40,925 bases of DNA from a virus. The position numbers and the translations under genes were made by a program. Shown here piece by piece: positions 4,571 to 40,880 of this stretch. Location of the stretch: IMG/VR virus record IMGVR_UViG_3300010883_000099, positions 1 through 40,925 of that record; one strand, given 5' to 3'. The notes under the pieces are model-generated. The model searched no databases. It was given only the letters and a program-made list of their open reading frames with translations, and was not told the DNA's origin. Within the stretch, counting starts at the first letter, position 1; each line of letters begins with the position of its first letter.

Positions 4571-4586
4571 CTTAAAATAGCGGCTC
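4571..4586 (+). promoter_or_regulatory. Late-type promoter before protease/capsid operon (TTAAAATAGCGG class)
   Basis: TTAAAATAGCGGCTCT starts at 4572, exactly 31 nt before ATG 4603. The same 16-base word (one C/T difference) begins exactly 31 nt before the tail-tube ATG at 12654. TTAAAATA is a plausible archaeal TATA box about 27 nt from the start codon, which would give a leaderless transcript. No Shine-Dalgarno precedes the ATG, in agreement. Confidence 0.72.
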
Positions 4587-4602
4587 TTAACTCGCTTCAC
4601 TA

Positions 4603-6000
4603 ATGGGTCTAGTCATCGTCCCCGCGGAAGAGTGGGCAGATATTAGTTCGAACCGGGATTGGACCGAGGAAGTACACTTCCGGCTCAATGTTCCGTTTTA
4701 TGTAGATAGAGAGGCAGAGGACACCGAGTTTAACAAAGCGGCTGATGGCGACATTGTCGTGAGAGGCCCAGTCTATGTCGGCAATCAGGAGATGTTAGAC
4801 CGGCACGGTGAACTCGTTGACATGGGTGCAATAATGGACGCCTGGTCCGGTGAAAACGGATATGATGTCAACCCTGTTATTCTATACAATCACAGCAAGA
4901 CACATGGCGTTATCGGGATGATGACCGATGTTGAAATGGGTAAATGGGGAGACTTCGACTTCGATGTCCCGATTGGTCGCGCAGTGATTGACGGTGGAGA
5001 GAAGGACATTGTTCGCAAAATCCGCAAGGGTATGCTACGCTCATTCTCAATCGGGTTCATGGCAAAGGCTGCTGTGAAGGAGTGCATTGACGGTGATGAG
5101 GACAATTGCTACATGATATTCACGGACATTGAGTGGGTGGAGACATCAGTTGTGGACATCCCATCATCCAGAGAAGCGATATTCAAGGTCGAGAAGAGAC
5201 TGATAGTTGACGACTCTAGTGAGAAGGCAAGTATGAGCCGTGATGAGCACCCAGAGATGAACTTAGAGAATGATTGTGTAGATGGATGCAGTTGCAATCA
5301 GTGTACATTTGAGAATTGGGCACACGAATCACCTATTGAACACCCAGAGATTCCTGACAGTGGCGACATAAAAGCAGTTTGTACTTGTGGCTCACTCATC
5401 AAAGAACTTGCAGAACCAATTGAACCGACTACTGTAGATACTGATACTTTTATAGACCCCTTACCCTCATCGGCTAAATTAGAGGCGACCGATATGACGG
5501 ACGAGACAGAAGAGATACTGATTAAAGAAGTGATGGAGCACCCTGAAGGGCAAGATGTTTCAATGCCAAGCCCGACAGAAGCGTTAATGGCAGTTACTAC
5601 GGCTATAGGCGAATTGAGCGCACGGATGAATGATATTGAGTCACAGTTTAACAAGACGGTTACTCAAGACGAAGAGATTTCCGAACTTGAGGCGCAGAAC
5701 GCAACCTTAACTGAACTAGTTGGGGATTTGACAGCGGCGAAAGAAGTAGCCGATGAAGAAGCCAATATCGCAAATCAGGTAGCCGAGCGAGTTGCAGAAC
5801 TAGCAAAGAACTTTCCCCAAACGGTTGAAGTCACGGTCGAACCGACCCAGAAGTCAGTCAAGGGAACGGTCGAAGAGCCGACCACTCCAGATAGACGCGC
5901 TAACATTCACGACCCAAGCATTCATGTGAGTCCCGGTATGAAGGGATTGAGCGATTGGTTGGAACAGCAGTTGGTCTCCAGAGGTGGCCTGAACCGCTGA
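4603..6000 (+). CDS. Prohead protease (HK97/S78-type) with C-terminal scaffold region
   Basis: Residues ~45-200 form a prohead protease domain: DRHGELVDMGAI, then the catalytic histidine in VILYNHS (H97), the catalytic serine in LRSFSIGF (S149), and the closing ETSVVDIPSS block. The enzyme cuts capsid and scaffold proteins during head maturation. Residues ~340-420 are acidic and predicted coiled coil (ELSARMNDIESQF, then ISELEAQNATLTELV), as expected of an internal scaffold, so protease and scaffold are one polypeptide directly before the capsid gene. Between the two parts is a Cys-rich insert at residues ~225-262 (C225, C229, C231, C234, C260, C262), unusual for this family. The ATG fits a leaderless start from the TTAAAATAGCGG promoter. 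Confidence 0.88.
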   Translation: MGLVIVPAEEWADISSNRDWTEEVHFRLNVPFYVDREAEDTEFNKAADGDIVVRGPVYVGNQEMLDRHGELVDMGAIMDAWSGENGYDVNPVILYNHSKTHGVIGMMTDVEMGKWGDFDFDVPIGRAVIDGGEKDIVRKIRKGMLRSFSIGFMAKAAVKECIDGDEDNCYMIFTDIEWVETSVVDIPSSREAIFKVEKRLIVDDSSEKASMSRDEHPEMNLENDCVDGCSCNQCTFENWAHESPIEHPEIPDSGDIKAVCTCGSLIKELAEPIEPTTVDTDTFIDPLPSSAKLEATDMTDETEEILIKEVMEHPEGQDVSMPSPTEALMAVTTAIGELSARMNDIESQFNKTVTQDEEISELEAQNATLTELVGDLTAAKEVADEEANIANQVAERVAELAKNFPQTVEVTVEPTQKSVKGTVEEPTTPDRRANIHDPSIHVSPGMKGLSDWLEQQLVSRGGLNR

Positions 6001-6041
6001 AGTTAAAGTCCAAACGGATATACAAAAAGGAGATGACTAAA

Positions 6042-7097
6042 ATGAGCGAAGAGATACAATTCGAACAAATGGTTGAGAAGGTCAAGGCTGCATTGGCGGG
6101 CGCAGGAACGTCCTCCGGTGGCACGATGCTCCCAACCGAGACAATAGAAGAGATAATTCAACTGGTTTACAGCCGGAATTACATACGAGGTCTGGTTTCA
6201 GCCCTCCCAATGAGCCGACAAACAGTTGAAGTCCCCAAGTTGACAGGAAGCGTCTCCTATCACGGTATGAGTCTTTCATCCGTTGAATCAGGAACCGCTG
6301 CAACCGAGACTTCACAGACAACCGGACAAATCACAATGACGCTAAAGACCCTAATCGCTAACATCCCCATCGGTAACTACTTGGTGGCGTATGGTGTTGA
6401 AGGTCTACTCAATGTACTTCGTGATGACATCGCGACCAGACTCGCCTTCGTGGAGGAACAGATGTTCCTCAACGGTGACATCGTTATCACAACCGCATAC
6501 GCGGACAACCTGAACGGAGCCTACAACGCTAGTACAAATGTACTCGGCGTGAACGCAACAACCAATGATTACCTCCTTCAATTTGACGGCCTACTAAAGT
6601 CCGCCGGCGCAACCGCAGTTGACGGTGCTGGAGCAGTCCTAACACTCGCCAAAATCCGTGAGGCAATGGTGAACTTGGCGGTCTATGGTGACAACCGAGA
6701 CAGTCTAGCACTAATCGTTCCCCGCGTGGTTGAAGCCCAACTACTCGGAACAACCGAACTACAGACGGTGGACAAGTACGGACCCGGCGCAACTATTCTC
6801 AATGGTGAACTCGGACGCATTTACGGTATCAGGGTGTTCGCATCTAACGCTCTCCGAACTGACTTCAACGCAAGCGGCGTCTTTGACGGAACAACCACTA
6901 ACCTAACAGTGGCTCTTCTCTTCAATACCCGCTCCCCGCTGATTGGCAACCCAACGGTGGCGAGTCGCAGGTTCAGCATCGGATTCGAAGATGAGCCAAC
7001 AAAGGACAGATTCGTTCTCATCCCACGAGAAGACATCGCTTTTGGTGTTCGATACACTGAAGCAATTTGCAAAATATACAACTTGAGCACCGCTTGA
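6042..7097 (+). CDS. Major capsid protein, HK97 fold
   Basis: I chose ATG 6042 because a strong Shine-Dalgarno (AAAAAGGAG, 6024-6032) lies 9 nt upstream; ATG 6033 would touch it. The 351-residue protein has the course of Phage_capsid proteins: a short N-terminal helix, GGTMLPTETIEEIIQLV, ALPMSRQTVEVPKL, a long middle helix with GLLNVLRDDIATRLAFVEEQMFLNG, ALIVPRVVEAQLLG, LGRIYGIRVFASNAL, and a closing RDxx-type tail (FVLIPREDIAFGVRYTEAI). The N-terminus is short and lacks a long delta domain, consistent with the scaffold being in the protease gene. Position after the protease is canonical. Its strong ribosome-binding site, absent from most genes here, fits the most abundant virion protein. Confidence 0.88.
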   Translation: MSEEIQFEQMVEKVKAALAGAGTSSGGTMLPTETIEEIIQLVYSRNYIRGLVSALPMSRQTVEVPKLTGSVSYHGMSLSSVESGTAATETSQTTGQITMTLKTLIANIPIGNYLVAYGVEGLLNVLRDDIATRLAFVEEQMFLNGDIVITTAYADNLNGAYNASTNVLGVNATTNDYLLQFDGLLKSAGATAVDGAGAVLTLAKIREAMVNLAVYGDNRDSLALIVPRVVEAQLLGTTELQTVDKYGPGATILNGELGRIYGIRVFASNALRTDFNASGVFDGTTTNLTVALLFNTRSPLIGNPTVASRRFSIGFEDEPTKDRFVLIPREDIAFGVRYTEAICKIYNLSTA

Positions 7098-7159
7098 TTG
7101 GGTCTCATTTGGCTTTTGGTTCGGAGCCTGATGGCTCACACAACTGAAGGTGGCAATAA

Positions 7160-7801
7160 ATGGCGGCAATTGACTACGCAACTTTGGCAGAAGTCGAAGC
7201 GTATTCAGGTGTTGACTTCTCTTTAGGCATAGGTCCAACTGATGTACAAATTGGCACAATGATTACTAACGCTAGTCGCATAGTGGACACATACGCTCGC
7301 AAGACAATAGCGCATGATGTAGTCCCGACATTCACTGAACACTTTGATGTATACACAAACATGGCACACCTTGTCCTGAAGAACCGACCTGTTGTGTCCG
7401 TGACATCGTTAGTCGAAGTGGACGATGACGGGTCGGAGACAACATGGACCGAATCGAGACTCCGTTCAGGAACTACGGATACGTTCTGGATAGAGGATGG
7501 CGATGCTGGTATTGTACGATTCATGGATAAGTTCACTGGCAACATCAAGCAATTCCTGAAGTTCGTTTACGTCGCTGGCAGAACTACTCCGACAAGCGAG
7601 GCTAAAATGGCGACAATCCTACTAGTTGTTAGACAGGCTGGCAGAGCAGCCATGAATGACGACAACTGTACAGACCGAATCAAGGAGTTCTGGCGCAGAC
7701 TGATAGATGATTCGGCTAAAGAACTTAAGGACCAACTTGACTTAGTGAAGGGTGCAGCGGAGACAACCGCAGCAACATTTGGGATGAAAGGTGGCTATTG
7801 A
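7160..7801 (+). CDS. Head-tail connector (adaptor, gp6/gp15-like)
   Basis: This 213-residue protein follows the capsid gene after 62 bases and has a Shine-Dalgarno (GAAGGTGG, 7145-7152). It opens with YATLAEVEAYSGVDF, then a helix with IGTMITNASRIVDTYARK and a loop NRPVVSVTSLVEVDDDG. The remaining helices include ATILLVVRQAGRAAMN. This is the pattern of adaptor proteins that dock under the portal in HK97 and SPP1. The role rests on this pattern plus position; subfamily is uncertain. Confidence 0.75.
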   Translation: MAAIDYATLAEVEAYSGVDFSLGIGPTDVQIGTMITNASRIVDTYARKTIAHDVVPTFTEHFDVYTNMAHLVLKNRPVVSVTSLVEVDDDGSETTWTESRLRSGTTDTFWIEDGDAGIVRFMDKFTGNIKQFLKFVYVAGRTTPTSEAKMATILLVVRQAGRAAMNDDNCTDRIKEFWRRLIDDSAKELKDQLDLVKGAAETTAATFGMKGGY

Positions 7802-8319
7802 TGGTGATTAGTAACGCAGGTGTTCCCGCAACGGATGCATGGCAGGTGTTGAAGGATTTAATTGTCAACAATATGGCATCTCCGGACGGGGTTTGGTCCC
7901 CCGTTGTGAATGATGGTTGGTTAGAGTTCAAGAGACAAAAGCAGTTTCAAATCGTGCTCTCTCCAATTATCGGTTCATCCGAACACATCCAACTTGACAA
8001 TCCAAGTGTAACCTCTGCACAGCGGACAACTTTGTATGTCATGGTGACATTGTTTTCACCTACAAGGACTGGCAGATGGCAAATGTGGGAGAAGTTCAAA
8101 GAACTCCTCAACAATCAAACTTTGTGCGCTCCGACAGACGCAAGTACTGGGATGGCGGGGGTTGAGTCGACGGCGTGGCACTTCGTCAAATTGGAACGTT
8201 CCGAGCAATCGGTCGACATAAGGTTCTTAGATGATGTGTGCGGACCCGGTAAGCCAGAGGCTGGCAATTGCGAAGGGTACAGAGCAGAAGTGTCGGTAAT
8301 GGTTAGGTGCAATGAATGA
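7801..8319 (+). CDS. Tail completion / terminator candidate
   Basis: ATG 7801 overlaps the connector stop (TGATG) and is preferred to TTG 7798. The 172-residue product begins with a helix (TDAWQVLKDLIVNNM), has strands around WLEFKRQKQFQIVLSP, and then a central helix (MWEKFKELLNNQ) and a C-terminal strand pair (YRAEVSVMVRC). The size, alpha/beta make-up and position between connector and tail genes suit a tail terminator (gpU/gp17-like) or head-closure protein. No diagnostic motif is seen, so the role is inferred mainly from synteny. Confidence 0.55.
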   Translation: MVISNAGVPATDAWQVLKDLIVNNMASPDGVWSPVVNDGWLEFKRQKQFQIVLSPIIGSSEHIQLDNPSVTSAQRTTLYVMVTLFSPTRTGRWQMWEKFKELLNNQTLCAPTDASTGMAGVESTAWHFVKLERSEQSVDIRFLDDVCGPGKPEAGNCEGYRAEVSVMVRCNE

Positions 8320-8741
8320 CTGAATACGCTAAAATGAAAAAAACGGAACTTGTTGACTTGTTAGAACTGCGAGGATTGGATAGTGACGGGACAAAAGCCG
8401 TCCTCATCGCACGACTGCAAGAAGCACATGAAGAGGCGATTGAAGAGATGACTCCTGAAGAGGATGCAGTGATTGAAGAGCCAGCGACCCCCGAGGATAC
8501 TGGGATGACACGACCTGAAGTACTCAATGAATGGGAGTTACAAGTTGACGCAGTTTACTACTCGGTGTTGGGGCGCAAGGCAGACCCTCAAGGACTTTAT
8601 CATTATCACTGGGAACTCAAGACGGGGAACCGTTCTGCGGCAGACCTCGCAGTTATTCTGGCCAACTCCGATGAAGGCAAAGCGCTAAAGGACCTTGAAG
8701 CCAAATCAGCACATGACGGTGCTGGTAATGAAGAAGAGTGA
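8316..8741 (+). CDS. SAP domain fused to DUF4214-like domain
   Basis: The start overlaps the previous stop (ATGA). Residues ~5-37 (KKTELVDLLELRGLDSDGTKAVLIARLQ) are a good SAP motif, a helix-extended-helix unit that often binds nucleic acid. An acidic Glu/Pro linker follows. Residues ~76-120 (VDAVYYSVLGRKADPQGLYHYHW, then RSAADLAVILANSDEG) match DUF4214, a small helical repeat common in secreted or surface proteins and near glycosyltransferases. The fusion of a nucleic-acid-binding type motif with a surface-type domain is unusual. As part of the virion cluster it may decorate the head or serve the glycan genes that follow. Confidence 0.68.
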   Translation: MTEYAKMKKTELVDLLELRGLDSDGTKAVLIARLQEAHEEAIEEMTPEEDAVIEEPATPEDTGMTRPEVLNEWELQVDAVYYSVLGRKADPQGLYHYHWELKTGNRSAADLAVILANSDEGKALKDLEAKSAHDGAGNEEE

Positions 8742-9894
8742 AAACCGACTCCGCAGTATGCGGTGGCAGGCTCGCACGGTCAATGACTTTCACACCGGAC
8801 AGGATTATTCAGTTCGCTGGCCTTGGGCCATATCGGGAACAAACCCCACTCCATACTGGGCATCACCCGCATTATCCGCACTTGGTTTGTCGACTGTTGC
8901 CACTGCAACGACTCAAACTAAAATTGCATTCGGTGTGTGGTTCAAGACGCTGGGAGTGTGGACTCAAACGCTCCCGATATTCGACATCACTTGGGCGTCG
9001 AGTAGTGCAATCGAAGCAGTCTTGTCGGCTGCTGATACTATCACATTCTCCTATGCTGAACACATCCTCCCTTATTGGAGCGGTGGCACAACAATTAACA
9101 CAATGCAGTTTCCTGCTCCGTATAACTTGGATGATGGGAACTGGCATTTTGTCGGATTCGCAAAAAAGGGAGGTTCTGCGAGTACATCATGCAGAGAGGC
9201 AACTCTCATTGTGGACAATTGGTCTTATGACTTGATAGGGAGTCAAGATGCCTTAATGGCAATCGGCGGGAATCATACGCTAGAACTTGGCAAGGGCATC
9301 GGCAGTCACTATGCCCAGTACATGGAACTTGCCGAACCGTCTTTGTACTGGGCAGACCCAGATGGTGCAGTGATTCTTGAGAATGCAGACAACCTCAAGT
9401 TTCACTATCAGTTTGGACCAATTATGGCTGGCACGACAGATGACCCCTTCTCTGTATCGCCAACTTATCAGTATGTCGATTACTTAATCGCTCAATGGAC
9501 AAATGCTCCTGTTACTTCTATGCCTTCGGGAGTCTGGAAGTCTACAGCAACGAACATGGACATGACGTGGCAAGGAGCGTCTGGATTAGAGACGTTGGTG
9601 AAGGATAACTGGTATCGAGATGCGATTATCGGCAATTTGTTTCAAGACAAAATAGAGACAGCACAAATCCCCAAGTCGCAAGGTGGAGATATCGGCCACA
9701 GCATTGGCTTCACTGTGGTGGCCGGTCCAATGAGTTGGATTAACAATGTAATTACATCACTGCCAAACAAGTACTCATACATCATCTCAACTGGGACAGC
9801 ACTAGATATTCCTGCTGGACAAAAGCCGCCAATAACAGACAACACAAGTTTCCTCCGGACCACAAAACTATTAAAGAGGCACACCGGTCCTTAG
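8728..9894 (+). CDS. LamG/concanavalin A-like structural or adhesin protein
   Basis: Possible starts are ATG 8728 (14-base overlap with the previous gene) and ATG 8758; the extra ten residues look uninformative. Residues ~45-210 look like a jelly-roll lectin domain: TQTKIAFGVWFKTL, a middle of alternating strands, DDGNWHFVGFAKKG (the dgxWHxvaxt element of LamG domains), then ATLIVDNWSYDL and a HTLELGKG strand. The rest is rich in Trp, Tyr and Thr without a recognised domain. LamG folds bind glycans, so this may be a decoration or attachment protein on the virion. It stands next to sugar-modifying genes, in line with a role in surface recognition. Confidence 0.58.
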   Translation: MKKSENRLRSMRWQARTVNDFHTGQDYSVRWPWAISGTNPTPYWASPALSALGLSTVATATTQTKIAFGVWFKTLGVWTQTLPIFDITWASSSAIEAVLSAADTITFSYAEHILPYWSGGTTINTMQFPAPYNLDDGNWHFVGFAKKGGSASTSCREATLIVDNWSYDLIGSQDALMAIGGNHTLELGKGIGSHYAQYMELAEPSLYWADPDGAVILENADNLKFHYQFGPIMAGTTDDPFSVSPTYQYVDYLIAQWTNAPVTSMPSGVWKSTATNMDMTWQGASGLETLVKDNWYRDAIIGNLFQDKIETAQIPKSQGGDIGHSIGFTVVAGPMSWINNVITSLPNKYSYIISTGTALDIPAGQKPPITDNTSFLRTTKLLKRHTGP

Positions 9895-9900
9895 TGCACA

Positions 9901-10635
9901 GTGACCCCAGTCATAGTACATCGGCGCGACTCGACCAATATAGGTGACATGGCCACATGCCCAGCCAATTATTTCAGTTGGCTTGATGATGCAGAAGTCA
10001 TTGACATATATGATGTAGCAGAGCATGACTTGTCTGGCAGAGATGTGATTGTCGGCGGCGGCGGTCTCCTACACCCGCCATTTGAACCGTTCCTCCAGTA
10101 CATACTAGATTCGGACACGAGGCACCTTGTAATGTGGGGTGTAGGCAGGAATGCGCACAACATAGATGATGTTTTGATACGACCCAAAGCCGCAAGGGAA
10201 TTGATTGACAAAGCAGACCTAGTTGGCCTTCGAGACTCCGTGTTAGATGATGAATGGGTCCCATGCCCGTCTGTACATCATCCTGTGTTCAAACAGTACT
10301 GGGGGAATGGGCATGTACAACCAGAAGTTGAGATAGTAGTTCTTCTCCATGCACAAAGTGAACTGGAAGTCTGGCACAAGCCATACAAGAACTTGCACCT
10401 ACGTATGGATAAGGATATTGACACGACACTCCAGTTCATCCTCAAAGGAGCGACAGTTGTATCATCCTCCTATCATGGGTGCCTCTGGGCCAAGTGGTTA
10501 CAACGAGAAGTTATTGTGGCCAACTCATTCTCGCAGAAGTTCAAATGGGGTCTTGGTTCGACATTCGAGGATGCTTTCACTCGGTCAGATTTGTTCGCAT
10601 CAAGAGTCAAAGCGCTCCTCTATGAATCGCAATAA
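9901..10635 (+). CDS. Polysaccharide pyruvyl transferase-like protein
   Basis: The start is GTG, six bases after the upstream stop. The 244-residue product carries family signatures: STNIGDMATCPANYF at the N-terminus, DVIVGGGGLLHP near residue 47, LVGLRDSV near residue 107, and SSSYHGCLWAKWLQREVIVAN near the C-terminus, matching the S-x-YHG block. Characterised members add ketal-pyruvate to sugars or act as related glycan transferases with a GT-B-like fold. At 244 residues it is shorter than many members. With the glycosyltransferase at 11298 it suggests glycan modification of virion or host surface proteins. The true donor and acceptor cannot be read from the sequence. Confidence 0.75.
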   Translation: MTPVIVHRRDSTNIGDMATCPANYFSWLDDAEVIDIYDVAEHDLSGRDVIVGGGGLLHPPFEPFLQYILDSDTRHLVMWGVGRNAHNIDDVLIRPKAARELIDKADLVGLRDSVLDDEWVPCPSVHHPVFKQYWGNGHVQPEVEIVVLLHAQSELEVWHKPYKNLHLRMDKDIDTTLQFILKGATVVSSSYHGCLWAKWLQREVIVANSFSQKFKWGLGSTFEDAFTRSDLFASRVKALLYESQ

Positions 10636-10693
10636 CAGTAATGAGCAAGGGTTTGTGGGCAATTAGGCGCTCGCTCAAGGAGTTCGGGAAAGT

Positions 10694-10725
10694 AAGTAGT
10701 GCGAGGCTTCATATACAGGTGACTG
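10694..10725 (+). promoter_or_regulatory. TATA promoter, first copy of a 32-nt promoter repeat
   Basis: The segment carries TTCATATACAGG (10708-10719) and is 29/32 identical to 10954-10985. The TATA word begins 43 nt before ATG 10751. About 25 nt from TATA to the transcript start would leave a leader of some 12-15 nt containing AAGGTGA, a Shine-Dalgarno. The conserved bases before TATA could include a BRE. Confidence 0.75.
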
Positions 10726-10750
10726 CTCTGGTCAGGTTAAGGTGAATGAA

Positions 10751-10954
10751 ATGGGCAAAATAATTTTCAACGAGCGAGGACTGATTAGAACATACGAATG
10801 TACTTGTGGCGGCGACTGCGAACCCAGCGAGATGGGAGTCCGGTGTTACACATGTGGCGCTGGGGCAGAATGGCCACCAATGAGTGACGCATACAATGAC
10901 ATGTTCGACCAACTGGTAGCAGACATTGAAGAACGCAAGAACAACGAATCTTGA
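10751..10954 (+). CDS. Small zinc-ribbon-like protein (67 aa)
   Basis: ATG 10751 is preferred over GTG 10742 because AAGGTGA (10738-10744) then sits as a ribosome-binding site. Four or five cysteines arranged as YECTCGGDC...VRCYTCGAGAEW form a plausible zinc ribbon, followed by a helix (YNDMFDQLVADIEERK). No family is recognised. It has its own promoter, and the promoter of the next tiny gene starts at its stop codon. Such small zinc proteins are often regulators or inhibitors; here this is only a possibility. Confidence 0.65.
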   Translation: MGKIIFNERGLIRTYECTCGGDCEPSEMGVRCYTCGAGAEWPPMSDAYNDMFDQLVADIEERKNNES

Positions 10955-10985
10955 AGTAGTGCGACACTTCATATACTGGTGACTG
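10954..10985 (+). promoter_or_regulatory. TATA promoter, second copy of the 32-nt promoter repeat
   Basis: TTCATATACTGG lies at 10968-10979, 44 nt before ATG 11012. The repeat differs from the copy at 10694 at only three positions, and identity runs on both sides of TATA. The leader carries AAGGAGG (10998-11004). Confidence 0.78.
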
Positions 10986-11011
10986 TTAGGGTGACACAAG
11001 GAGGAACCAAA

Positions 11012-11260
11012 ATGAGTATGAAAATATATGTTGAAGCAAACAGCAGAGCGGCACTCAATCGCCGTCTCGCAGAAGGTGAAGTCATAGAGGGTCGTAACTA
11101 CTCGATGTTCGCTCCGGCAACTGGGCCGGACCGCGCGGGTATGCATACCCTTGACACTACACTCGCATCGGGAACGCTGATAGCCATTTACTCACAGATG
11201 AGCGGCGGCAACCCCGTCAGCAAGTCGTGGGGCACATGGAACGGCATCAACGCAGTTTGA
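11012..11260 (+). CDS. Small protein of unknown function (82 aa)
   Basis: ATG 11012 has a near-perfect Shine-Dalgarno (AAGGAGG, 10998-11004) and lies downstream of its own TATA promoter. ATG 11018 is an alternative. The N-terminus (KIYVEANSRAALNRRLAEGEVI) looks like a strand-helix-strand; the rest is rich in Gly, Ser and Thr. There are no cysteines, membrane segments or recognised motifs. Strong individual promoter and ribosome-binding site suggest high expression independent of the neighbouring structural operons. Confidence 0.65.
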   Translation: MSMKIYVEANSRAALNRRLAEGEVIEGRNYSMFAPATGPDRAGMHTLDTTLASGTLIAIYSQMSGGNPVSKSWGTWNGINAV

Positions 11261-11268
11261 GACCAACT

Positions 11269-11282
11269 CTTAAGAGCGTGGG
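11269..11282 (+). promoter_or_regulatory. CTTAAGAG-class promoter before the glycosyltransferase
   Basis: CTTAAGAGCGTGGG begins 29 nt before ATG 11298. The same word with one change (CTTAAGAGGGTGGG) begins 30 nt before the helicase ATG at 29462. The spacing places TTAAGA where a TATA box would give a leaderless transcript, and no Shine-Dalgarno is present. Confidence 0.5.
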
Positions 11283-11297
11283 CGTCTCCCGCAATCT

Positions 11298-12626
11298 ATG
11301 GGAGAGTCGCTAGACATTCTATGGGGGTCGGAGCAACCGACCCGGCACACTGGATATGGACGAGTCTCACGCGAATTAGCCAAGCGCTGGGTGGCCAACG
11401 GGCACACAGTCAATTGCATAGGGTGGGACTATACTGGAGAGCCGTTCGAGCATGTTGAAGGATGGACTATGCTGGACGCAGGACTCAAAGGATTCGGGAA
11501 CTGGCCAACGATGGGGGCAGAGTCCCCGACTGTTCTCGAGAAGCACTTGTTGAATATCAAACCAGATGTGTTCGGTTCGCTTATTGATATTTGGTTTACT
11601 GGACACATGATACAATCCACAAATGCTCTCGGCTGTCCATACATCAACTACGTGCCGATTGATGGAGTGCCATTTAGCGAACAGTGGAGCAACATGGCCC
11701 TGCAAAGTCACACGCTGACATTCATGTCCCAGTTCGGGCTAGATGTGTTCGACCAGCATGTTAAAACTCACAACGAGGCAGAACAACTGTTGCAACGTTT
11801 TGAGAACGACACACCTGTTTCAATCTATCATGGGGCAGACCTCGAGACGTTCCGTCCAGCGAAGGCGGGTGAGAAGGATGAGTTGAGAGAGAAGTGGGGC
11901 TTCCCGTGGGAGACAGTATTCCTCTCTGTTGCTCGCAATGTGAATCGCAAGCAGACCCCTCGATTACTTGAGGCATTACATCACCTTGTCTATGATGAAG
12001 GCGAGAAGGACGTCGGTTTAGTTATGCAATGCGGCGACCCGTTCGATACAACAAAGCAGGGGTGGAACTTACCTCAACTTGTGGCTCGGTATGGACTTCA
12101 GGGACATGTAGCATTCACGGACGACAATGATAATCCTCTTGTTGGGATGTCAACTGAACAAATGGCTGAACTGTACAGGGCATGCGATGTTCATGTTCTC
12201 GCGACCGGCGGTGAAGGGTTTGGAATCCCGACAGCAGAGGCATTCGCTAGTGAAATACCCGCAATATGTCCTGCGAACTCGACTGGGCCGGAACTTATCG
12301 GTGCGAATGAAATCGGCAAAGGAGATAGAGGCTGGCTTGCTGGATTGGATGGCAGAATTGTTGGCTCACAGTGGGGTGTTGAAATGGGTCTTGTTTCAGC
12401 CAAGCATTTGACTGATTGTATGAAGGATGCCACAGACGGGAAAGCAACGCACAAACTGGGTCAGACGGCACGGGAATGGGCTGTTGAAAACCTGAACTGG
12501 GACACTATTGCTGTGGAGTTTGAAGAACTATTTAGGTCAAGACTAGAAGAACCGCACCCACTGGGTGAACATGCGAATAAGGATAGATTACACGCCCTCT
12601 CACCGTTGTTGAGCCAACAGGGTTAA
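11298..12626 (+). CDS. GT4-type glycosyltransferase (GT-B fold)
   Basis: The 442-residue protein shows a GT-B pattern. The N-terminal half opens with DILWGSEQPTRHTGYGRVSRELAKRW, where the glycine turn and following helix are typical. The linker to the C-terminal domain reads VSIYHGADLETFRPA, followed by VFLSVARNVNRKQTPRLLEAL. The nucleotide-sugar site is marked by ACDVHVLATGGEGFGIPTAEAFAS, an E-x7-E type motif near residues 305-315. Members transfer sugars from nucleotide donors with retention. The gene follows a CTTAAGAG promoter and lacks a Shine-Dalgarno, so the first codon may be the transcript start. With the pyruvyl-transferase-like gene it forms a small glycan set within the virion genes, perhaps glycosylating capsid, tail or adhesin proteins. 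The substrate is unknown. Confidence 0.85.
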   Translation: MGESLDILWGSEQPTRHTGYGRVSRELAKRWVANGHTVNCIGWDYTGEPFEHVEGWTMLDAGLKGFGNWPTMGAESPTVLEKHLLNIKPDVFGSLIDIWFTGHMIQSTNALGCPYINYVPIDGVPFSEQWSNMALQSHTLTFMSQFGLDVFDQHVKTHNEAEQLLQRFENDTPVSIYHGADLETFRPAKAGEKDELREKWGFPWETVFLSVARNVNRKQTPRLLEALHHLVYDEGEKDVGLVMQCGDPFDTTKQGWNLPQLVARYGLQGHVAFTDDNDNPLVGMSTEQMAELYRACDVHVLATGGEGFGIPTAEAFASEIPAICPANSTGPELIGANEIGKGDRGWLAGLDGRIVGSQWGVEMGLVSAKHLTDCMKDATDGKATHKLGQTAREWAVENLNWDTIAVEFEELFRSRLEEPHPLGEHANKDRLHALSPLLSQQG

Positions 12627-12638
12627 AATAGCGGTTCT
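12622..12638 (+). promoter_or_regulatory. Late-type promoter before tail operon (TTAAAATAGCGG class)
   Basis: TTAAAATAGCGGTTCT starts at 12623, exactly 31 nt before ATG 12654, duplicating the arrangement at 4572/4603. It marks the start of the tail operon and implies a leaderless transcript. The TAA inside TTAAAATA is also the stop of the glycosyltransferase. Confidence 0.72.
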
Positions 12639-12653
12639 GGTCTCGGTCACACA

Positions 12654-13052
12654 ATGGCAGTACATGAGTTCACTGGCGTCACCGGTAAAATTACTGTAAA
12701 CGGCACTTTGGTGGCGTTTGTTTCAGGCGATGTGACGATGGCAATAGCAACAGGAAAATACACAGTACTTAACTCAAATGCGGCGAGTAATAACACTCGA
12801 GGAATCCGCACAGTGTCGGGTACACTTAAGCGAGCGTGGGGAGTCGCAGATACAACTCTTTACGATTTGATGATGAATGACACCGAGTTCGCTATTATGT
12901 TCGACAATGACGGAGCGACTGGCACGCATACTTACACAGCAAGCGGTTGCGTCATCACAGAACTATCGGTTGAAGGTCTTGAGGCTGGAAGCGAGAACGC
13001 GTTGATGATAAACGCATCATTTGAAGGACTCAACTTCGGTCGAGACGCCTGA
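12654..13052 (+). CDS. Major tail (tube) protein
   Basis: The 132-residue protein is mostly beta: KITVNGTLVAFVSGDVTMAIATGKY, RTVSGTLKRAWGVADTTLYDLM, CVITELSVEGLEAGSENALMINASFEG. This resembles small siphovirus tube proteins, in which the ITELSVEG...INASFEG end is a repeated theme. Position before the chaperone pair and tape measure agrees. It is the first gene of the tail operon, with a leaderless-type start. Confidence 0.75.
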   Translation: MAVHEFTGVTGKITVNGTLVAFVSGDVTMAIATGKYTVLNSNAASNNTRGIRTVSGTLKRAWGVADTTLYDLMMNDTEFAIMFDNDGATGTHTYTASGCVITELSVEGLEAGSENALMINASFEGLNFGRDA

Positions 13053-15925: not shown

Positions 15926-18900
15926 ATGGAAATTAAACAAGAGTTCAAATACAACTACTCAATGCTCAAGAACGGGTTGCAGGAAAACCAGAGACAATGG
16001 CCAGTACTTGTCCGAGATGAAAAGTTAACTATTGACCCAGTACTGTATGGGAGCAACTTTGGTCCGAATAGTCCCGGTGCTGACTCCCTCGCTGAAAGTG
16101 TGGCCAATACGCCCGGTGTCCGTTTGGAGTACTTGCGAACAAACTCTGCGAAGGATGCATTGAATGCATTAGCAGAGGGAACTTGCACTCTACAAATATC
16201 CAACTCTGGAACGTTTAACGCTTATGCTACAATCACTTGGCCGGATGCGAGCACAACAAGAGTCAACCTTGTTGCTCCAAGCACAGAGGTTATGGGAGCA
16301 AACTGGCTAGAAGCAGGGCCAAGCGCTAACCTGTATCCGGGACAATGTCCCGGCCCATATCCGGTGTTCATGACCCTTCAAGAGTTGTGCGACACACTGG
16401 ACACATTCATCGTGGAGGGGAATGAAGTAGATGCGACTAGAACATACATTCAACCAAGCGGCTTTCAATGGCAAGCCGACAACATGCCCGGAACCAGTGG
16501 AGACAACTTTGACACCGTTCTTCTCAACTGGGGAGGTGCTGTGCCAGAGAGTAATTGGCAACTCGCTGTAACGATGTTTATGCCGATGGTGAAGAACCTC
16601 AATCAGTTGGGGTCAGATGTAACAAATGAAGAATCATGGTCGGACGCTTCAACTGATGCGCACATCACTAACCCATTCCTCCGCTACGACCACAATCCAA
16701 TTACTGGAGACTTGCCAGCAGGTGTCGGCAGATATGGGTTTAGAGGACACTCTGGCGACATGGTGAAAGCAACACGCTCTGCCGGGTATGGACATTACAA
16801 CTCGACACTCGCCAAGTTCGACAACGGCACTATTGGAATACAGTCAACACAGCAAGCAAATCATGGTGGCGCACCTAATCCTAAGTGGAGATTGCGAACA
16901 GCACTGGCATGCTTCCTCAAGGACGGGACATACACAATATCAGGTGGAGGAGCAATCATCCCCTACACCTATGACCCGGACAGGAACTTCGGTGGCTTCT
17001 CAACTGGTCAGTTGGGTGCTGACAAGTACTACTACGGGACATGGGATGGAGGAGCAGACATTGCAGCCGCAAACAGTGACGATGGGACGGGCATAGACGC
17101 ATCAGCGCAAGTCTATGGGGGATTCATTCAAGGACCGTTCTGTCCTGCCCCACAATCGCATAACATCAACGGCATTGTCAGCGCATACTACGAGTGGATT
17201 GGGTCTATACCACTGACGTCCGGGTATGATTGGTGGGGAGGTTGGGGGGAGCCATCAGGCCCACTTCGGGATGTGACTGGCTTCTTTCCTCGCAGTCCCG
17301 GTTATGGAATGTCAATTGTTAACCCAATGCCTCACTATGCGATGGCTGGAGACACAATGCAGCGAACTGGAACTGACCCATTTTACTTCACACTTGAGCC
17401 CGATGGGTCAAATACATTCGTTGGTCCTGTCGGAACTGGTATTGCAAACCTGCAAGTAATAGATATGGACTCAATAACTGACCCAGCCGCCCCAGTAACG
17501 GCCCGGATGCCCTCGTGCTTTGACGATGATGACATCCCGCTTTGGTTCGGGTCAGTTGGAGCGGTCTGGGGCGCTAATTCACAGGCTGGCTTCCTCTGGA
17601 GTCCCTGGAGTGTAGGACGAGCACAAGACACTCTCGCTTACACATGGCACATCGGCAAAAGAGTCGGCACGACAGCAGCAAGAGATGGATTAGAGTTCAT
17701 CACAGACCCATACTGGATTGTGAACTTGCAAGTTGACGCTACTCCTTTGGACTTGACTGCTGCGAACACGGATATTCAATTCAAGCAGGGTGTGAGGTGG
17801 GCACTGATGAAAGACGGGCTCAACACAGACAATGCTGATGGAGGCGCGTATGAGTCATTTTGGGGTGCTCTGTATCCAGACCGATACATGGTTGGAGAGA
17901 AGGGCTTTGGCATGGGTAAGAGTACTGCTCCAGTGGGCTACGGCAACATCATCGGCAGAATGCCCGACCGAGTACACGGCATTACTCCTGACGATGGGAG
18001 AATTGGCGACTGGTGGTTTGAGCCACAGTCAGGAGGAGCAGCGAAGTTCAATCGAGGCGGGGGATGCATTCGAGTCTCCCCAGCACGATTCGCCGGAGCA
18101 ATATCACGGAGTACTGGCGAGGCCTCTTCCTCCCCATTCCTGCCACTAGCGGTTCAATGGCAACACAATAGCCTTGAGATGTGGCTACTGTCTGACTATG
18201 AATCCGAGACTGGATACAATGCGTGGGCATCAGTTAAGCCGGGTTCAACTACGACAACTACGGGGTCGGGTTCACGAGCAGCCACTTCGTGGCCGATGGG
18301 CCGCAATCGCAACTGGCCGGGTCACACCCGAGCATGGGGGACCAAACTTGGGCATCAGCCGTCTTTGATGCCCGGTGCATTGGATGGAGACGTAACAGGG
18401 TATGGTGCGCCAACTGCTAAGACCAGTCTGACCGAGAACTCATGCTCACCGATGTTCATTGACATTGAACTACAAGCATACTTCCCGAAGGTGGATGGGC
18501 ACATGACTCGACTAGTGTTCGAGCAGGGAACATCGGACTTCGGCAGAGGAGAAGTCGGCGGCGCACAAAGCGGATTCTCGATTAGCGAACACTCAACTCC
18601 GTTCCAGACTGGAGGCAATCCTCTCATGTCGGCTCGCAATGGCTTTGGTGGCCATTATGTTGTCGGAGGTTCTCCCTTCACAAGTCCGATTCTGCTTCCT
18701 CAAGCGGACATTACCTCAATGGTCTCACCGGAGACACAGTCGCAATTCCCGTGTTCAATCCGCCCTGACAATCCTGCAGTCTGGCATGGGGGAGGGAACA
18801 AGATGCAAGCAAACACCGCTTGGCCAAGCGTGACTGGAGACAACGCGACAAGAGAGTTGCCTCCAAGCCTAGCAGGCGGTGCATGGGGTGCACTAGATGG

Positions 18901-20539
18901 AGCAGGGATGGGAACTCCGTTCTCTCAAGACGAGGGTTCTCACAAATGGAGGTGTGCGTTTGACGAGGGAGGAATGACATTTTATCTCGATGATGCAATA
19001 CAGGGCAAGTATGTCGGCGCTGGTTCTCCCGTGTACTCATTCAAGTTACAGGCATGCTCATTCAACCTCGACTCGACCTCCTCGGGCAACAATGACGACT
19101 CTCTGGAAAAAGTGACCGAGAAGCAACTATATGTTGATGAAATAACAGTTCGACAAGTTCCCTCGTTGGCTATGCTCCCGTTCACAATTGAGACAACAGT
19201 CATCAATGAGGACGCAGGAAAGTACAAAACGCTCACAGTCTTTGCTGACAATGTAATATCGGCAAACGACTACGACGTCAAAGTGAGTATTTGCACTCCT
19301 GGAGACACAACTGGAATATGGGCAGGGTATGGTCGCTCTCCCGGAACTCCGATTGCGGACTTTGAGTCTTTGGATTTGCAAATCGCAGGTGGTTATGGGA
19401 GTACCAACCTCACTGACCTCCCAGCCTCTGTTTATGTTGACGGATTCACTATTCGCTGGGAGTTTTGGGTCCCCAACGTCGGGAGTGAAAATGCACCCGT
19501 CAATTGGGATTCTCTGCCTGAAATATCCAATTGGAAAATCACTTTTGACAACATGCCAACGGCTACTTGCGCCGTTACTGGTAACACATTTAACAACGAC
19601 CTATCAAGTCCAATTACAACTGAAGTTGGACACATTGTAACATTTTACTCAACAGGGACTACAATTGACCCAGACAGACTGATGACACACGTGAAATATG
19701 ACTTCGGAGACGGGACAATCACGGACTGGATTGCCATTGCTGTTCCAGCCTTGACGGTCAATCACACAATCACACACGCCTATTCAGTCGCAGCAACAGC
19801 ACTTAACATGACTGCCATGTACAAGGATGACAACGAGAATGAAAGCGCAGCAACTACGGCGATTGTAGTTAACGTGAATGCCACAAATCCAGTCGCTGCT
19901 TTGAGAGCAAGCCCAATGATGGTTCGAGCAGGACAGACAGTGAGGCTTGACGGGTCAAAGTCCTATGATGTTGATAGCACGACACTAACCGACTTCACCT
20001 TCACTCCCGGAGATGGTTCAACTGCTATCGGACCTCAATACGCAAACTATGCTGACCACACCTATGCAGTAGCGGGTGAATACAGAGCAACGCTGACATG
20101 TGAGGATTCAACGGGCAACACCAGCAACATGGCAACGTGCATCATCAAGGTATTGCCCGCAAACCTTGTCATCCCTCTTACATTGAACACGATGCCATCG
20201 GAGTTCAGTCGAACACGGCAAGCGAAGTATCACTCAACACCAGTACTGGATGCAGCATTCCCTGAACTAAGAGACACAGGACAACGGAGCGACAAGTTTA
20301 GCCTGAGGGGTGAGTTCTTGACGGAGACAGCAGACGTGGACATCGCGTTCATGGAGGAACTACTGATGTCTGGAGCACTTGTCGAGTTTGAGTGGCAAGC
20401 CGTTAATTACATCGGGACACCGGACAGCAAGACATTTGTCGGTCGCATGACGGACTTCTCGTATGAGCGAGAGGGTGGCAAACACGGACAGACCCCGTAT
20501 ACTGCACAATTCACTCGAGAGGCCGCACTGGGGGTCTGA
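15926..20539 (+). CDS. Giant tail protein with two PKD-like domains and a distal-tail-like C-terminus
   Basis: The 1537-residue protein follows the tape measure. Residues 1-~1200 are rich in Gly, Asn, Trp, Tyr and Thr, alternate between strands and loops, and match no domain I recognise. Two PKD-like domains follow: ~1211-1316 (VKYDFGDGTITDW then ITHAYSVAAT) and ~1319-1411 (RLDGSKSYDVDSTTLTDF, then DHTYAVAGEYRATLTCED). PKD domains are common on archaeal cell surfaces. The last ~120 residues (DTGQRSDKFSLRGEFLTE, LVEFEWQAVNYIG, FVGRMTDFSYEREGG) look like a baseplate or distal tail protein that anchors to the tube. It is therefore probably an enlarged distal tail or fibre component. There is no signal peptide. 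The stop overlaps the next start (TGATG). Confidence 0.65.
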   Translation: MEIKQEFKYNYSMLKNGLQENQRQWPVLVRDEKLTIDPVLYGSNFGPNSPGADSLAESVANTPGVRLEYLRTNSAKDALNALAEGTCTLQISNSGTFNAYATITWPDASTTRVNLVAPSTEVMGANWLEAGPSANLYPGQCPGPYPVFMTLQELCDTLDTFIVEGNEVDATRTYIQPSGFQWQADNMPGTSGDNFDTVLLNWGGAVPESNWQLAVTMFMPMVKNLNQLGSDVTNEESWSDASTDAHITNPFLRYDHNPITGDLPAGVGRYGFRGHSGDMVKATRSAGYGHYNSTLAKFDNGTIGIQSTQQANHGGAPNPKWRLRTALACFLKDGTYTISGGGAIIPYTYDPDRNFGGFSTGQLGADKYYYGTWDGGADIAAANSDDGTGIDASAQVYGGFIQGPFCPAPQSHNINGIVSAYYEWIGSIPLTSGYDWWGGWGEPSGPLRDVTGFFPRSPGYGMSIVNPMPHYAMAGDTMQRTGTDPFYFTLEPDGSNTFVGPVGTGIANLQVIDMDSITDPAAPVTARMPSCFDDDDIPLWFGSVGAVWGANSQAGFLWSPWSVGRAQDTLAYTWHIGKRVGTTAARDGLEFITDPYWIVNLQVDATPLDLTAANTDIQFKQGVRWALMKDGLNTDNADGGAYESFWGALYPDRYMVGEKGFGMGKSTAPVGYGNIIGRMPDRVHGITPDDGRIGDWWFEPQSGGAAKFNRGGGCIRVSPARFAGAISRSTGEASSSPFLPLAVQWQHNSLEMWLLSDYESETGYNAWASVKPGSTTTTTGSGSRAATSWPMGRNRNWPGHTRAWGTKLGHQPSLMPGALDGDVTGYGAPTAKTSLTENSCSPMFIDIELQAYFPKVDGHMTRLVFEQGTSDFGRGEVGGAQSGFSISEHSTPFQTGGNPLMSARNGFGGHYVVGGSPFTSPILLPQADITSMVSPETQSQFPCSIRPDNPAVWHGGGNKMQANTAWPSVTGDNATRELPPSLAGGAWGALDGAGMGTPFSQDEGSHKWRCAFDEGGMTFYLDDAIQGKYVGAGSPVYSFKLQACSFNLDSTSSGNNDDSLEKVTEKQLYVDEITVRQVPSLAMLPFTIETTVINEDAGKYKTLTVFADNVISANDYDVKVSICTPGDTTGIWAGYGRSPGTPIADFESLDLQIAGGYGSTNLTDLPASVYVDGFTIRWEFWVPNVGSENAPVNWDSLPEISNWKITFDNMPTATCAVTGNTFNNDLSSPITTEVGHIVTFYSTGTTIDPDRLMTHVKYDFGDGTITDWIAIAVPALTVNHTITHAYSVAATALNMTAMYKDDNENESAATTAIVVNVNATNPVAALRASPMMVRAGQTVRLDGSKSYDVDSTTLTDFTFTPGDGSTAIGPQYANYADHTYAVAGEYRATLTCEDSTGNTSNMATCIIKVLPANLVIPLTLNTMPSEFSRTRQAKYHSTPVLDAAFPELRDTGQRSDKFSLRGEFLTETADVDIAFMEELLMSGALVEFEWQAVNYIGTPDSKTFVGRMTDFSYEREGGKHGQTPYTAQFTREAALGV

Positions 20540-23500
20540 TGATGGATGTCAACAAAACGAGAATGAAGCCGCCAACGGGGGCTGGTTCGGGTCTCCCGTT
20601 CACATGGCTGTTTGACCCATTAGGCAACTGGGCATATTCTCCACTAACGCCGACGTCAGCGTCTGGGACTCTCATACAACCAAGTGGAGTAAACTGGGCA
20701 CAAAAAGAACTGTCGAATCCGAAGGGCGCTTACTTCTCCTCTTCAGCACATAACGACATGGCACTCATCAACACACAAGCACCTCGTTTGAATATCGGCA
20801 ATGGCTACATGTACTTTGGACAAGGGATGGCTCAATCTAGCGCACCCTATAATGAGGACCCATTGGAGAAGGCCAACTATGTGTCTAACACAGCCGCGAC
20901 ATTCACATCACCGGGAAAGTTCACAGCGCACAGAGATAATGCAAGGCCAGCCGGTTCGGCCGAGAGTCCGGGCAACTATTCATATCACAATTGGATGCCA
21001 TCAGTTAGCACTCCAGTTGGCGATGTCAAGTTTAGGACAACTGATGCTCGCGTGGGTACACTGGGACATTGTGCAACAGTATGTACATATTCAGCCGCAG
21101 ACATTTCATCGGCGGGATGGGGTCGGTCTTGGGGAGATGCTCACGATACTGTTCACAATGTAAACATCGGAGCATCATTCATTACTCAAGCAGACGCAAC
21201 GGGATTGGGATATGGAACACAACGTACCCGCGTAGGTATTGCGGGCGATGGACTCCCTTTGTACTGGACTTTGAACTCGGACTCTAACACGCACTACTCC
21301 GACACAACATTGACTGGAGGCAATCCGAGTGCTGCTCTTGAAAGAACAGCGACTGGCGCAGTCTCCGGTGCGTCAAACACTCTCGCTCACTTCGCATTCA
21401 TGGATTTAGACGGAGGGGCATCAAGGTCAACTATGCCCATCGGTGCACCGCATCTCGGCAACACTGTGATTGCTGACAGTTGTGGCTTAGTTGGTTGGGA
21501 TGGCTTGTTTGTAGCAACTGCAACTTATGCAAACTCATCGGATGACAATGCGACATTGACTGGTGCTGCGGGTGAGTTTGGATATTGTTCAATCAACATC
21601 ATAGTACACACAGCAGAACCCGGTATTCGCTCACAAGACCAACTTGCCAAGTTCTCGGCCTCGAAGTTTATGATTCCTCACGGCGATATGATGGCTACAA
21701 ACTGTGGGATGCTGCAAGGTGCATCGAGGTCTGCAAATTGGGATAATGCAACAACACTGATGTCTGGCATTACAGTCCTGAACGCAACAGCAACTGGCTA
21801 CTTGGCCGGCAGGACTATCACAACACCCGGTGCATATACTGAAGGAGCATACTACACACAACGGAGTGCTGCTGCTAGTGAGCCGGGTGAGATTACCAGA
21901 ATTGTTGGCGAGGCAGGTGTGCAAAAAGGCACGGCTTGGGGAGGTTGTGCTTCGATTGACCTCATGTGGGCTGCTGACAAATATCCAACTCAAGTTCGGG
22001 TCGTCCCGTCACTATTGGGCAAGGATGCATCCGGTTCAGGTATTGTGGACTATCACGTACTAGTGAGTCTTGCCACATCCCCCGCACCGATAGTTGGCGG
22101 ACTAAATGCTGCATTTAGCGGAGACCCAGTTCAACGTAACAATCCAGCACCAAGCACCCTGCACCGCAATGTTGACATGAACGGGGAGAATTGTGAGATT
22201 TGGCATGGTGTGTTCCGAATCAATCCGACTTATGAGGCTGGTTCCAGCACTGGACTCAATGCTGGAGTATTGAAGCAGACAACGGCTTGGGGATTACATC
22301 AAGTGACCCCGTTCCGTCCACTGGCTAACGCTGGATGGGTCAATGTTCCTCAAATGTGTTCTGCTATTGAATCAGGAGGCCCGCATCAGCGAGGTGGCAT
22401 TGCCCATTTGTGGGATTCGGATGCATACAGTGGAGAGTTGTTTGTAGGCGCAGACATTGCCGTGCCCGGCGACATACACGCCGATTCACCGTCTGGGACT
22501 GATAGCAACGGATTCAACCTATTCGGTGCATTCGGGTCTGGACAGAATTACAACACTGGGATAGAAGCCGGCATAGGCATCCCCCGACAACAACAACTCA
22601 TGGTGTTCCGTTACAGCCCGAGAACTGACCCGTGGCATCCGGGCTCAAAACAAACAACTCCAACAACTAACAAACTCGGAGAGTGGCTTGCTGCAAATGC
22701 TCCTACTCTAACAGACAAGGATGCAGTATTCAACGCATCAGTGCATCATGTTGCTCATACAGTTACTGACATCAACCTGTTGGGGTCGCGAGGATGGGAG
22801 ATTCACGATTGGGTATTCCCATCTGGTGAGTTACTACCATACATGGGGACCGGATTGCCTACAATCCATTGTGCTTCTCTGCGAATCGTGGATGATGGCA
22901 GAATGTTGATGGCGACAATCCAAAGAGACTACGTGAAGGATGCGGGAACAATTCCTCAACTAGACATTGGATGGCCATACAATCCAGACATTATGTTCGA
23001 TGTTCTCCCTCCCGGATATTACACTGATGCATCTGGCGTAGTACAACCATTTGGAACAGGGTCGTCGTACAACAGAGATGATGGTGCAGGAAATGCATTT
23101 GTTCCTCAAGCGGGAACATACCTGACTGGTGCAACTACTCCATCATTGACGCAAGCAGACCCACTTTCATTTTCAGGAATGGACACGGTCTTTGGCTACA
23201 CACCCCCGTGGAACAAGACAAAGTCCGATACACATGCTCGCAGTCTGGTTCTTATGTTCACGGAGGCTAAGGCTCAACATGACGGGACATGTGCCAGAGG
23301 GAGAGCAATGTTCGACGTCGATTATATTCGTGAGGCCGGCGCATGGAATGTTATACAATCGTGGACTGGAGATGACACATGGTGGAGTGGGTCACAAATC
23401 GCGTACTGGTATCCTGAAAGCGGACAACGAGCAATCCCTATCACATACGGTTCATACCCCGAGTGCAGACTATCCTATGCTCACCTGCCTCGGTGTTTGC

Positions 23501-29018: not shown

Positions 29019-29030
29019 TTCATATACTGG
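29019..29030 (+). promoter_or_regulatory. TATA promoter (TTCATATACTGG), start of the replication region
   Basis: TTCATATACTGG lies 44 nt before ATG 29063, the same distance as for the genes at 10751 and 11012. AGTAG upstream of TATA (29006-29010) also resembles those two promoters. A short leader with GGCGGAG (29053-29059) as a weak Shine-Dalgarno is implied. Confidence 0.75.
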
Positions 29031-29431: not shown

Positions 29432-29445
29432 CTTAAGAGGGTGGG
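29432..29445 (+). promoter_or_regulatory. CTTAAGAG-class promoter before the XPD-like helicase
   Basis: CTTAAGAGGGTGGG begins 30 nt before ATG 29462 and matches 13 of 14 bases of the element before the glycosyltransferase (11269-11282). The placement indicates a leaderless start and argues against the in-frame GTG at 29441. Confidence 0.5.
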
Positions 29446-31226: not shown

Positions 31227-31247
31227 TTCATATACTGCGGCAGTATA
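31227..31247 (+). promoter_or_regulatory. TATA promoter overlapped by a perfect palindrome (candidate operator)
   Basis: TTCATATACTG (31227-31237) begins 30 nt before ATG 31257. TATACTGC (31231-31238) and GCAGTATA (31240-31247) form a perfect 8+1+8 inverted repeat that covers part of the TATA box. A dimeric repressor bound there would block TBP. The TATA box lies inside the longer ORF that could start at 31188, which is why ATG 31257 is the better start. Confidence 0.7.
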
Positions 31248-32414: not shown

Positions 32415-32442
32415 TTCATATACTTGGGGGACCCACGTCCCC
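32415..32442 (+). promoter_or_regulatory. TATA promoter followed by an inverted repeat (candidate operator)
   Basis: TTCATATACT (32415-32424) begins 31 nt before ATG 32446, directly after the upstream stop. GGGGAC (32427-32432) and GTCCCC (32437-32442) form a perfect inverted repeat with a four-base spacer, between TATA and the expected transcript start. This is a classic repressor site position; if the transcript is leaderless the repeat acts as DNA, not RNA. Confidence 0.7.
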
Positions 32443-37618: not shown

Positions 37619-37875
37619 AATCCCCGTCGAGACGAGTCAAGCGGCTATGGCAAACAATGGTCGATGCAGGCTGTTGCACGGATGAAGGCAACAGTATGTC
37701 CACGAGAGAGATACTCGCTTTGCCCGGACAACCGTTCACAATGAATCAACTGTCGAATCATCTAGCAGGAAAGCCTCGAATGTTTGAGCGAACTGGAAAT
37801 GTTAGAGTGCAACAAGTCACGGGTGAGGCGACATATCCGATGGCAACATGGTTAGCAATCAATGGCGCATTGTGA
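37615..37875 (+). CDS. Small protein, possible helix-turn-helix DNA binder (86 aa)
   Basis: The start overlaps the nuclease stop (ATGA). The product is basic at the N-terminus (KSPSRRVKRLW), and the middle STREILALPGQPFTMNQLSNHL could form a helix-turn-helix, followed by a possible wing (RTGNVRVQQVT). Small DNA binders often control early genes, and two possible operators lie in this region. The fold is a guess from pattern only. The PCNA promoter begins just after its stop. Confidence 0.55.
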   Translation: MKSPSRRVKRLWQTMVDAGCCTDEGNSMSTREILALPGQPFTMNQLSNHLAGKPRMFERTGNVRVQQVTGEATYPMATWLAINGAL

Positions 37876-37879
37876 GCAA

Positions 37880-37890
37880 TTCATATACTT
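37880..37890 (+). promoter_or_regulatory. TATA promoter (TTCATATACTT) before PCNA
   Basis: The word begins 31 nt before ATG 37911, matching the leaderless promoter at 32415 exactly in spacing and in the TTCATATACTTGGG extension. This spacing decides the start codon of the PCNA gene. Confidence 0.75.
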
Positions 37891-40869: not shown

Positions 40870-40880
40870 TAGTCAGACAA

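Follow-up and report, generated by a model that had tools for sequence, protein, structure and literature searches.

Candidate early and late promoter words in an uncultured tailed virus, probably of an archaeon, and in its relatives

Do the operons that build a virion carry a promoter signal of their own, distinct from the one preceding the replication genes of the same virus? The question is raised by a 40,925-bp stretch of viral DNA (IMG/VR record IMGVR_UViG_3300010883_000099, positions 1 to 40,925; hereafter the window), in which an initial annotation had noticed the same word of 16 nucleotides (nt) ahead of a protease/scaffold gene and of a tail tube gene, and had taken it for a late promoter different from a second, early word. 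We found exactly two matches to TTAAAATAGCGGYTCT in the window, both on the + strand (4572 and 12623), and no further exact copy on either strand, as had been claimed. Copy 1, TTAAAATAGCGGCTCT, spans 4572..4587 and lies 31 nt before ATG 4603 of the protease/scaffold gene. Copy 2, TTAAAATAGCGGTTCT, spans 12623..12638, overlaps the stop codon of a glycosyltransferase gene and lies 31 nt before ATG 12654 of the tail tube gene. The identical spacing of the common form, TTAAAATAGCGG(C/T)TCT, is thus confirmed. The claim that each copy precedes a first structural gene needs amending: the word leads the protease and tail tube genes, but the portal gene (1911) and an open reading frame at 4149 precede the protease. 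We consider it probable that both copies act as core promoters for the late operons that build the virion, giving leaderless messages and read apart from the early promoters.

The likeness of the two sites is confined to the word itself. Even the 12-mer, or TTAAAATA, is restricted to these two sites within the window, and allowing up to three mismatches to the 16-mer adds a single match, at 31528 on the − strand (0.26 expected). When we counted pairs of 16-mers at equal distance from start codons, in register and with at most one mismatch, we obtained four (adjacent offsets taken separately and early-word pairs included), against 0 of 2,000 resampled sets. Hence, the equal spacing of near-identical 16-mers is not expected by chance. 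The copies are identical at 15 of 16 positions within the word and at only 2 of the 8 bases upstream; downstream of it there is no clear likeness except CTCG and ATGG. With 2 of 8 bases in common, the two copies share no purine-rich B recognition element (BRE) upstream of the TATA box. The BRE consensus used for this comparison comes partly from PMC11065993. Shine-Dalgarno-like sequences are absent before both ATG 4603 and ATG 12654.

We then turned to related viruses, for which a search with the capsid protein in public viral contigs gave 80 loci. The exact 16-mer is present at 41 loci in viral contigs, and among them only L003/L093, nearly identical to the window and belonging to this same virus (capsid 100%), is kin. 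Searching for the word together with the spaced ATGG gave 43 loci, with the same outcome. The exact word was therefore rejected as a family signal; among kin it is confined to this virus. Nor does it recur on the second contig of this virus, which supplies another 24 kb and where further copies had been anticipated. The relatives do have a signal at these places, which was revealed by an unsupervised expectation-maximisation (EM) motif search of 2,624 upstream sequences (2,629 before the removal of 5 duplicates) from 14 longer related records and the window. The search yielded two motifs around 30 nt before starts: an early motif, T.ATAAAGGTGGG, whose distance to the start is 28–31 nt for 112 of 119 genes, and a late motif, T.AA.AACC, whose distance is 29–32 nt for 95 of 104. 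In a late matrix built from records other than L003 and the window, the late motif carries C-R-M-N-W-C-M-S at the upstream (BRE) position.

The two motifs divide genes by function. We labelled genes by their likeness to the replication or structural genes of the window (recA, g31257 and similar designations are working names); the records are not independent of one another. Early-type calls fell on 47 replication genes and no structural gene, while late-type calls fell on 41 structural and 3 replication genes (Fisher exact test, 1e-22). Type and function are concordant in 88 of the 91 labelled genes, a value reached by none of 20,000 shuffles of labels within records (largest 70). Models trained on half of the records and applied to the other half gave a comparable split, with 47 replication and 0 structural genes for the early class and 30 structural and 2 replication genes for the late one. 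Among early calls, the helicase, g32446, g34483 and PCNA-like families have 9 each, g35508 and the RFC small subunit (RFC-S) 7 each, and PolB 6. Late calls concern the head-tail adaptor (9), g8316 (8), and the portal, protease and tube (7 each). Hence, the part of the initial proposal that separates a late signal from the early word stands at the level of motif classes, since related viruses have the class motif T.AA.AACC before structural genes and terminase and another motif on replication genes, but the exact 16-mer is not conserved in them.

Counts over the wider set of loci, restricted to those with a usable start and an intact 5' end, point in the same direction. The late-type motif occurs 29–32 nt upstream of the protease at 30 of 44 loci, of the tail tube at 17 of 21 and of the head-tail adaptor at 23 of 46; it is also found before the major capsid protein (15/49), g8316 (5/10) and the portal (3/18), and at 0 of 15 tape-measure loci. 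At none of these loci was an early-type call obtained. A late signal had also been predicted before the terminase. We found no terminase large subunit in the 65 kb recovered of this virus; in 5 of 11 related records a late-type motif stands before the terminase (PF05876, 28.2 bits, cut-off 25.6), which agrees with the prediction. Shine-Dalgarno-like sequences precede 46 of 223 promoter-led genes, versus 58 of the 150 labelled genes to which no promoter was assigned (p = 0.0002), which is a difference, not an absence.

The late word of the window, TTAAAATAGCGG, lacks the CC that the family has at the 3' edge. In a midpoint-rooted capsid tree, 77 other rows group to the exclusion of the window, and the outermost rows are L080 and L081. 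L080 has CTATGAACC ahead of its protease, and in L081, a deep relative, a late word peculiar to it, TGAAGT[AC]TGACC[AT]A, stands before both portal and protease (around 2199–2229 and 4587–4615). Under midpoint rooting, the CC form would be the older one, and in this virus a single new word would have replaced it at both operons. A sequence-specific reader would force separate operons to change together, so that the same altered word at both places suggests, but does not prove, such a reader. One more late-class gene of this virus has TTAAAGTAG at −32; we read its product as resembling terminase small subunits, for which there is no family match.

The early words of the window can be compared directly with the late one. 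TTCATATAC has six copies. In the same register as the late word, and on the + strand, TTCATATACT stands at 31227..31236 (30 nt before ATG 31257), at 32415..32424 (followed by TGGGG, 31 nt before ATG 32446; early-type score 15.3 bits) and at 37880..37889 (followed by TGGGA, 31 nt before ATG 37911; 14.5 bits). We read gene 37911 as PCNA-like, a label supported by neither family nor PDB search. At 10968..10977 and 29019..29028 (both +), TTCATATACT lies 44 nt before ATG 11012 and ATG 29063, the extra distance being taken up by a short Shine-Dalgarno-like leader (AAGGAGG and GGCGGAG, respectively). The form TTCATATAC(A) at 10708..10716 (+) is 34 nt before GTG 10742. Two early-type promoters were called besides these, both on the + strand: TTAAGAGGGTGGG at 29433..29445, 29 nt before ATG 29462 of an XPD/DinG-like helicase gene (early-type posterior 0.99), and TTAAGAGCGTGGG at 11270..11282, 28 nt before ATG 11298 of the glycosyltransferase gene (0.90). 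Since TTAAAATA and TTCATATACT occupy the same place before starts, both look like TATA-type elements that would set the start site.

These data are consistent with the following scheme. TTAAAATA would be a TATA box. It occupies the stretch from 31 down to 24 nt upstream of the ATG, the location of an archaeal TATA box (about 26–31 nt ahead) when the start codon is also the transcription start, and transcription would begin at or near that codon. This placement would make the protease and tail tube mRNAs leaderless, and most downstream genes of each late operon would rely on Shine-Dalgarno leaders. Replication genes would use the same register with another element, which is T.ATAAAGGTGGG across the family and takes the form TTCATATACTtGGG in the window virus, and the late element T.AA.AACC of the family would have been altered here to TTAAAATAGCGG at both operons. 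As early and late words are both TATA-type and in one register, they would differ by bases in and just after the TATA box, not as unrelated promoter types. Host TBP, TFB and RNA polymerase would most likely serve both (neither the TBP nor the TFB family is encoded in the 15 records searched, several of which are fragments), and a sequence-specific factor, reading the 3'-edge bases of the TATA box, may favour early promoters first and late ones later. A bolder version, which we hold only tentatively, is a two-letter promoter code located where the TATA box ends on its downstream side. Its reader would be encoded by the virus and be neither TBP nor TFB; the candidate is the protein A3 described below, and reader and late words would co-evolve. 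Each deep lineage would then have its own late word, namely TTAAAATAGCGG here, TGAAGTNTGACC in L081 and T.AA.AACC in others. If there is such a virus-encoded reader, archaeal viruses would possess an equivalent of the late-transcription switches of phages, working at a position like that of the BREd element.

It is important to highlight several observations that weigh against this scheme. The late motif is weak: shuffled upstream sequences give 18 late calls in 2,624, compared with 93 held-out calls in register, whereas the early model gives 3 and 120, respectively. Across random seeds, the early motif was found in all of the best 8 of 24 EM runs and both motifs in 2 of these 8. The late motif is the weaker discovery because the higher-scoring runs coupled the early motif with a diffuse component. 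Three late calls lie ahead of replication-block genes, the glycosyltransferase genes are mixed (3 early and 2 late), and only 91 of the 224 promoter-carrying genes could be labelled, leaving 133 unlabelled. The late word of the window fits neither class (−0.2 and 0.2 bits with the early model, −0.2 and −0.9 with the late one). As both models score it near zero, it is assigned to the late class by where it lies and which genes it leads, and not by its sequence. Besides, on the continuation, TTAAAATAGGGT stands at −30 of a gene in the early region and differs from the late word at 2 of 12 bases. Finally, late timing is here deduced from gene function.

Some explanations dispense with a specific reader. 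The sharp borders of the word bear on the main alternative to one, which is that one promoter was recently copied to the other operon, in which case their likeness would be uninformative. Among the 13 loci with both promoters, the window has the most similar late words (15/16, compared with 8–13 in the others), as copying would produce. Yet the likeness stops abruptly at both borders, which weakens this account, and relatives independently keep the class motif at both places; we find it rather improbable. Chance likeness of two AT-rich stretches could be invoked because 40 of the 41 loci with the 16-mer are unrelated to the virus, but the exact register found twice, the resampling result and the family-wide pattern leave it hardly any credit. 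A further account holds that the words are ordinary host-type TATA boxes, that the bases downstream tune nothing but strength, and that late genes rise simply as genome copies rise. It agrees with both words being TATA-like and in one register, and with the lack of viral TBP and TFB in the 15 records. By itself, however, it does not predict the 88/91 split by function, nor the two distinct 3' elements conserved across records (GGTGGG versus CC), and we regard it as unlikely.

Other explanations keep a reader and change its nature. The GGTGGG after the early TATA box could serve as an operator at which a repressor, viral or from the host, silences early genes, late promoters being the default. 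The early element is better conserved than the late one, which fits this idea, and the characterised regulators of archaeal viruses are described as mostly promoter-acting repressors (PMC5569661). Repression leaves unexplained both the AACC common to late promoters and the identical new word at the two late operons of this virus; we regard it as doubtful. Host paralogues of TFB or TBP, each with its own word, would make a viral factor unnecessary. Some archaea have multiple TFBs, and none of the 15 records encodes a TFB or TBP. However, the private late words of the window virus and of L081 would each require a host factor with its own specificity, and we give this explanation a low probability.

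If the reader of the proposed late promoters is viral, two proteins are candidates, on the basis of suggestive predicted folds. A3 (L244:11875-12396) is a winged-helix protein conserved in 8 records including this virus. Its model has a predicted local distance difference test score (pLDDT) of 83.8 and a weak best PDB match (E = 0.038); Pfam HTH_20 was matched in 2 of 8 (best E = 0.0034), and we read its C-terminal half as ribbon-helix-helix-like. Promoter calls for its gene are mixed (1 early and 1 late among 8). A2 is a small winged-helix-like protein (window 37615-37872) encoded in the replication operon, between a nuclease and the PCNA-like gene, and conserved in 10 records; its model has a pLDDT of 78.9 and its best match, at E = 0.019, is a plant methyltransferase. 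Both remain putative regulators.

Comparable arrangements are known elsewhere. In T4-type phages, a short late word near the starts of structural operons is distinct from early promoters. The likeness to the present case is this short word at structural operons; the difference is that T4 uses bacterial RNA polymerase and a sigma system. Among archaeal viruses, the majority of SIRV1 and SIRV2 promoters are said to have a virus-specific GTC motif downstream of the TATA box (PMC5569661). Those viruses resemble ours in combining a host-type TATA box with a virus-specific element just downstream, but they have one element where there are two function-dividing ones here, and they are rod-shaped, crenarchaeal and unrelated. 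An early regulatory sequence, TTTAWATA plus a BRE, precedes early anti-defence genes in SIRV2 and other archaeal viruses (PMC11065993). There too, a temporal class has a genome-specific sequence around the TATA box that varies between viruses, with differing viral regulators proposed; here the likeness lies in the TATA box and its downstream edge, and includes the late class. Temporal expression has been measured in halovirus His2 (PMC7221443). In HFTV1, a tailed virus of Haloferax, replication genes are expressed early and the portal, protease, capsid and tail tube genes later (PMC12542753, in part), the same order as proposed here. The part of that article available names no promoter motif, and the HFTV1 start regions are, by eye, without these two elements. 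Several structural start regions of HFTV1 (L291; gp14, gp29, gp35, gp38 and gp42) share, also by eye, an AAACG.TTA-like stretch around 30 nt upstream, possibly a late word.

Temporal promoters of archaeal viruses are thus known already, and the two-word variant appears to be new: we found no two-word early/late promoter code for archaeal tailed viruses in titles and abstract openings of the open-access literature. Very few cultured systems inform us about gene timing in archaeal tailed viruses, whose early and late DNA signals are largely undescribed. A two-class code readable from sequence would give timing predictions for a whole uncultured family and assign its uncharacterised genes to an early or a late class. 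It would also allow the existence of a viral factor for late transcription in archaea to be tested directly with cloned promoters.

The virus that carries the window extends beyond it. The window record has no flagged end repeats, and its positions 40803-40925 match the end of the 24,256-base record IMGVR_UViG_3300010883_012539 (L164/L244) at 123 of 123 bases. This continuation encodes an archaeal-type RFC small subunit (293.5 bits, cut-off 303; its best PDB matches are RFC small subunits), a family B polymerase and a weakly CobS-like ATPase. The right half of the window encodes the XPD/DinG-like helicase, a PD-(D/E)XK nuclease, an ERCC4-HhH nuclease and, just below the cut-off, an archaeal-type primase small subunit (PriS-type). 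From the RFC small subunit and the PriS- and ERCC4-type domains we infer that the virus infects an archaeon. In a search for the host, alignment of the capsid against 84,980 species genomes gave no match, and the single RFC-S match, at 26% in a metagenome-assembled genome of Arcobacter, was taken as unrelated. No close matches to capsid, portal or g32446 were found among 50,697 GenBank phage records, a set that does not include the named magrovirus ON649702. Aoguangviridae (Magrovirales, viruses of marine group II archaea) encode a TFB (PMC10768690), a trait seen in 0 of our 15 records; as far as we have read, it is not a defining feature of Magrovirales.

Part of the continuation is rich in early-like words. 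Between about 8.8 and 13.6 kb of L244, the reverse strand has many AGTAGTGCGAGTG-TTCATATACTGG copies ahead of very small genes, and the upstream half of this repeated element is also common to the copies. More TTCATATAC words occur in the same region on the opposite strand. The repeated element may be a promoter of extended form that serves small early proteins.

The genes behind the late word were identified by family searches. The prohead protease/scaffold gene (4603..6000, +), led by copy 1, matches PF04586 (24.3 bits, cut-off 21) and phrog_80, head maturation protease (31 bits). The operon-internal, HK97-type major capsid gene (6033..7097, +; PF05065, 62.9 bits) has a AAAAGGAG leader upstream and no promoter word in register. 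The tail tube gene (12654..13052, +), led by copy 2, scores 23.3 bits with PF18906 (below the cut-off of 27) and 24.6 bits with phrog_290, minor tail; its position near the tape-measure gene (PF10145) is conserved. The glycosyltransferase gene within the structural block (window 11270-12626) is preceded by an early-type promoter of its own, which is what one would expect of an insert transcribed separately. Further along, window 15926-26427 holds two giant genes in a row (1,537 and 1,963 amino acids), with the tape measure on one side and a YQBQ-like gene on the other.

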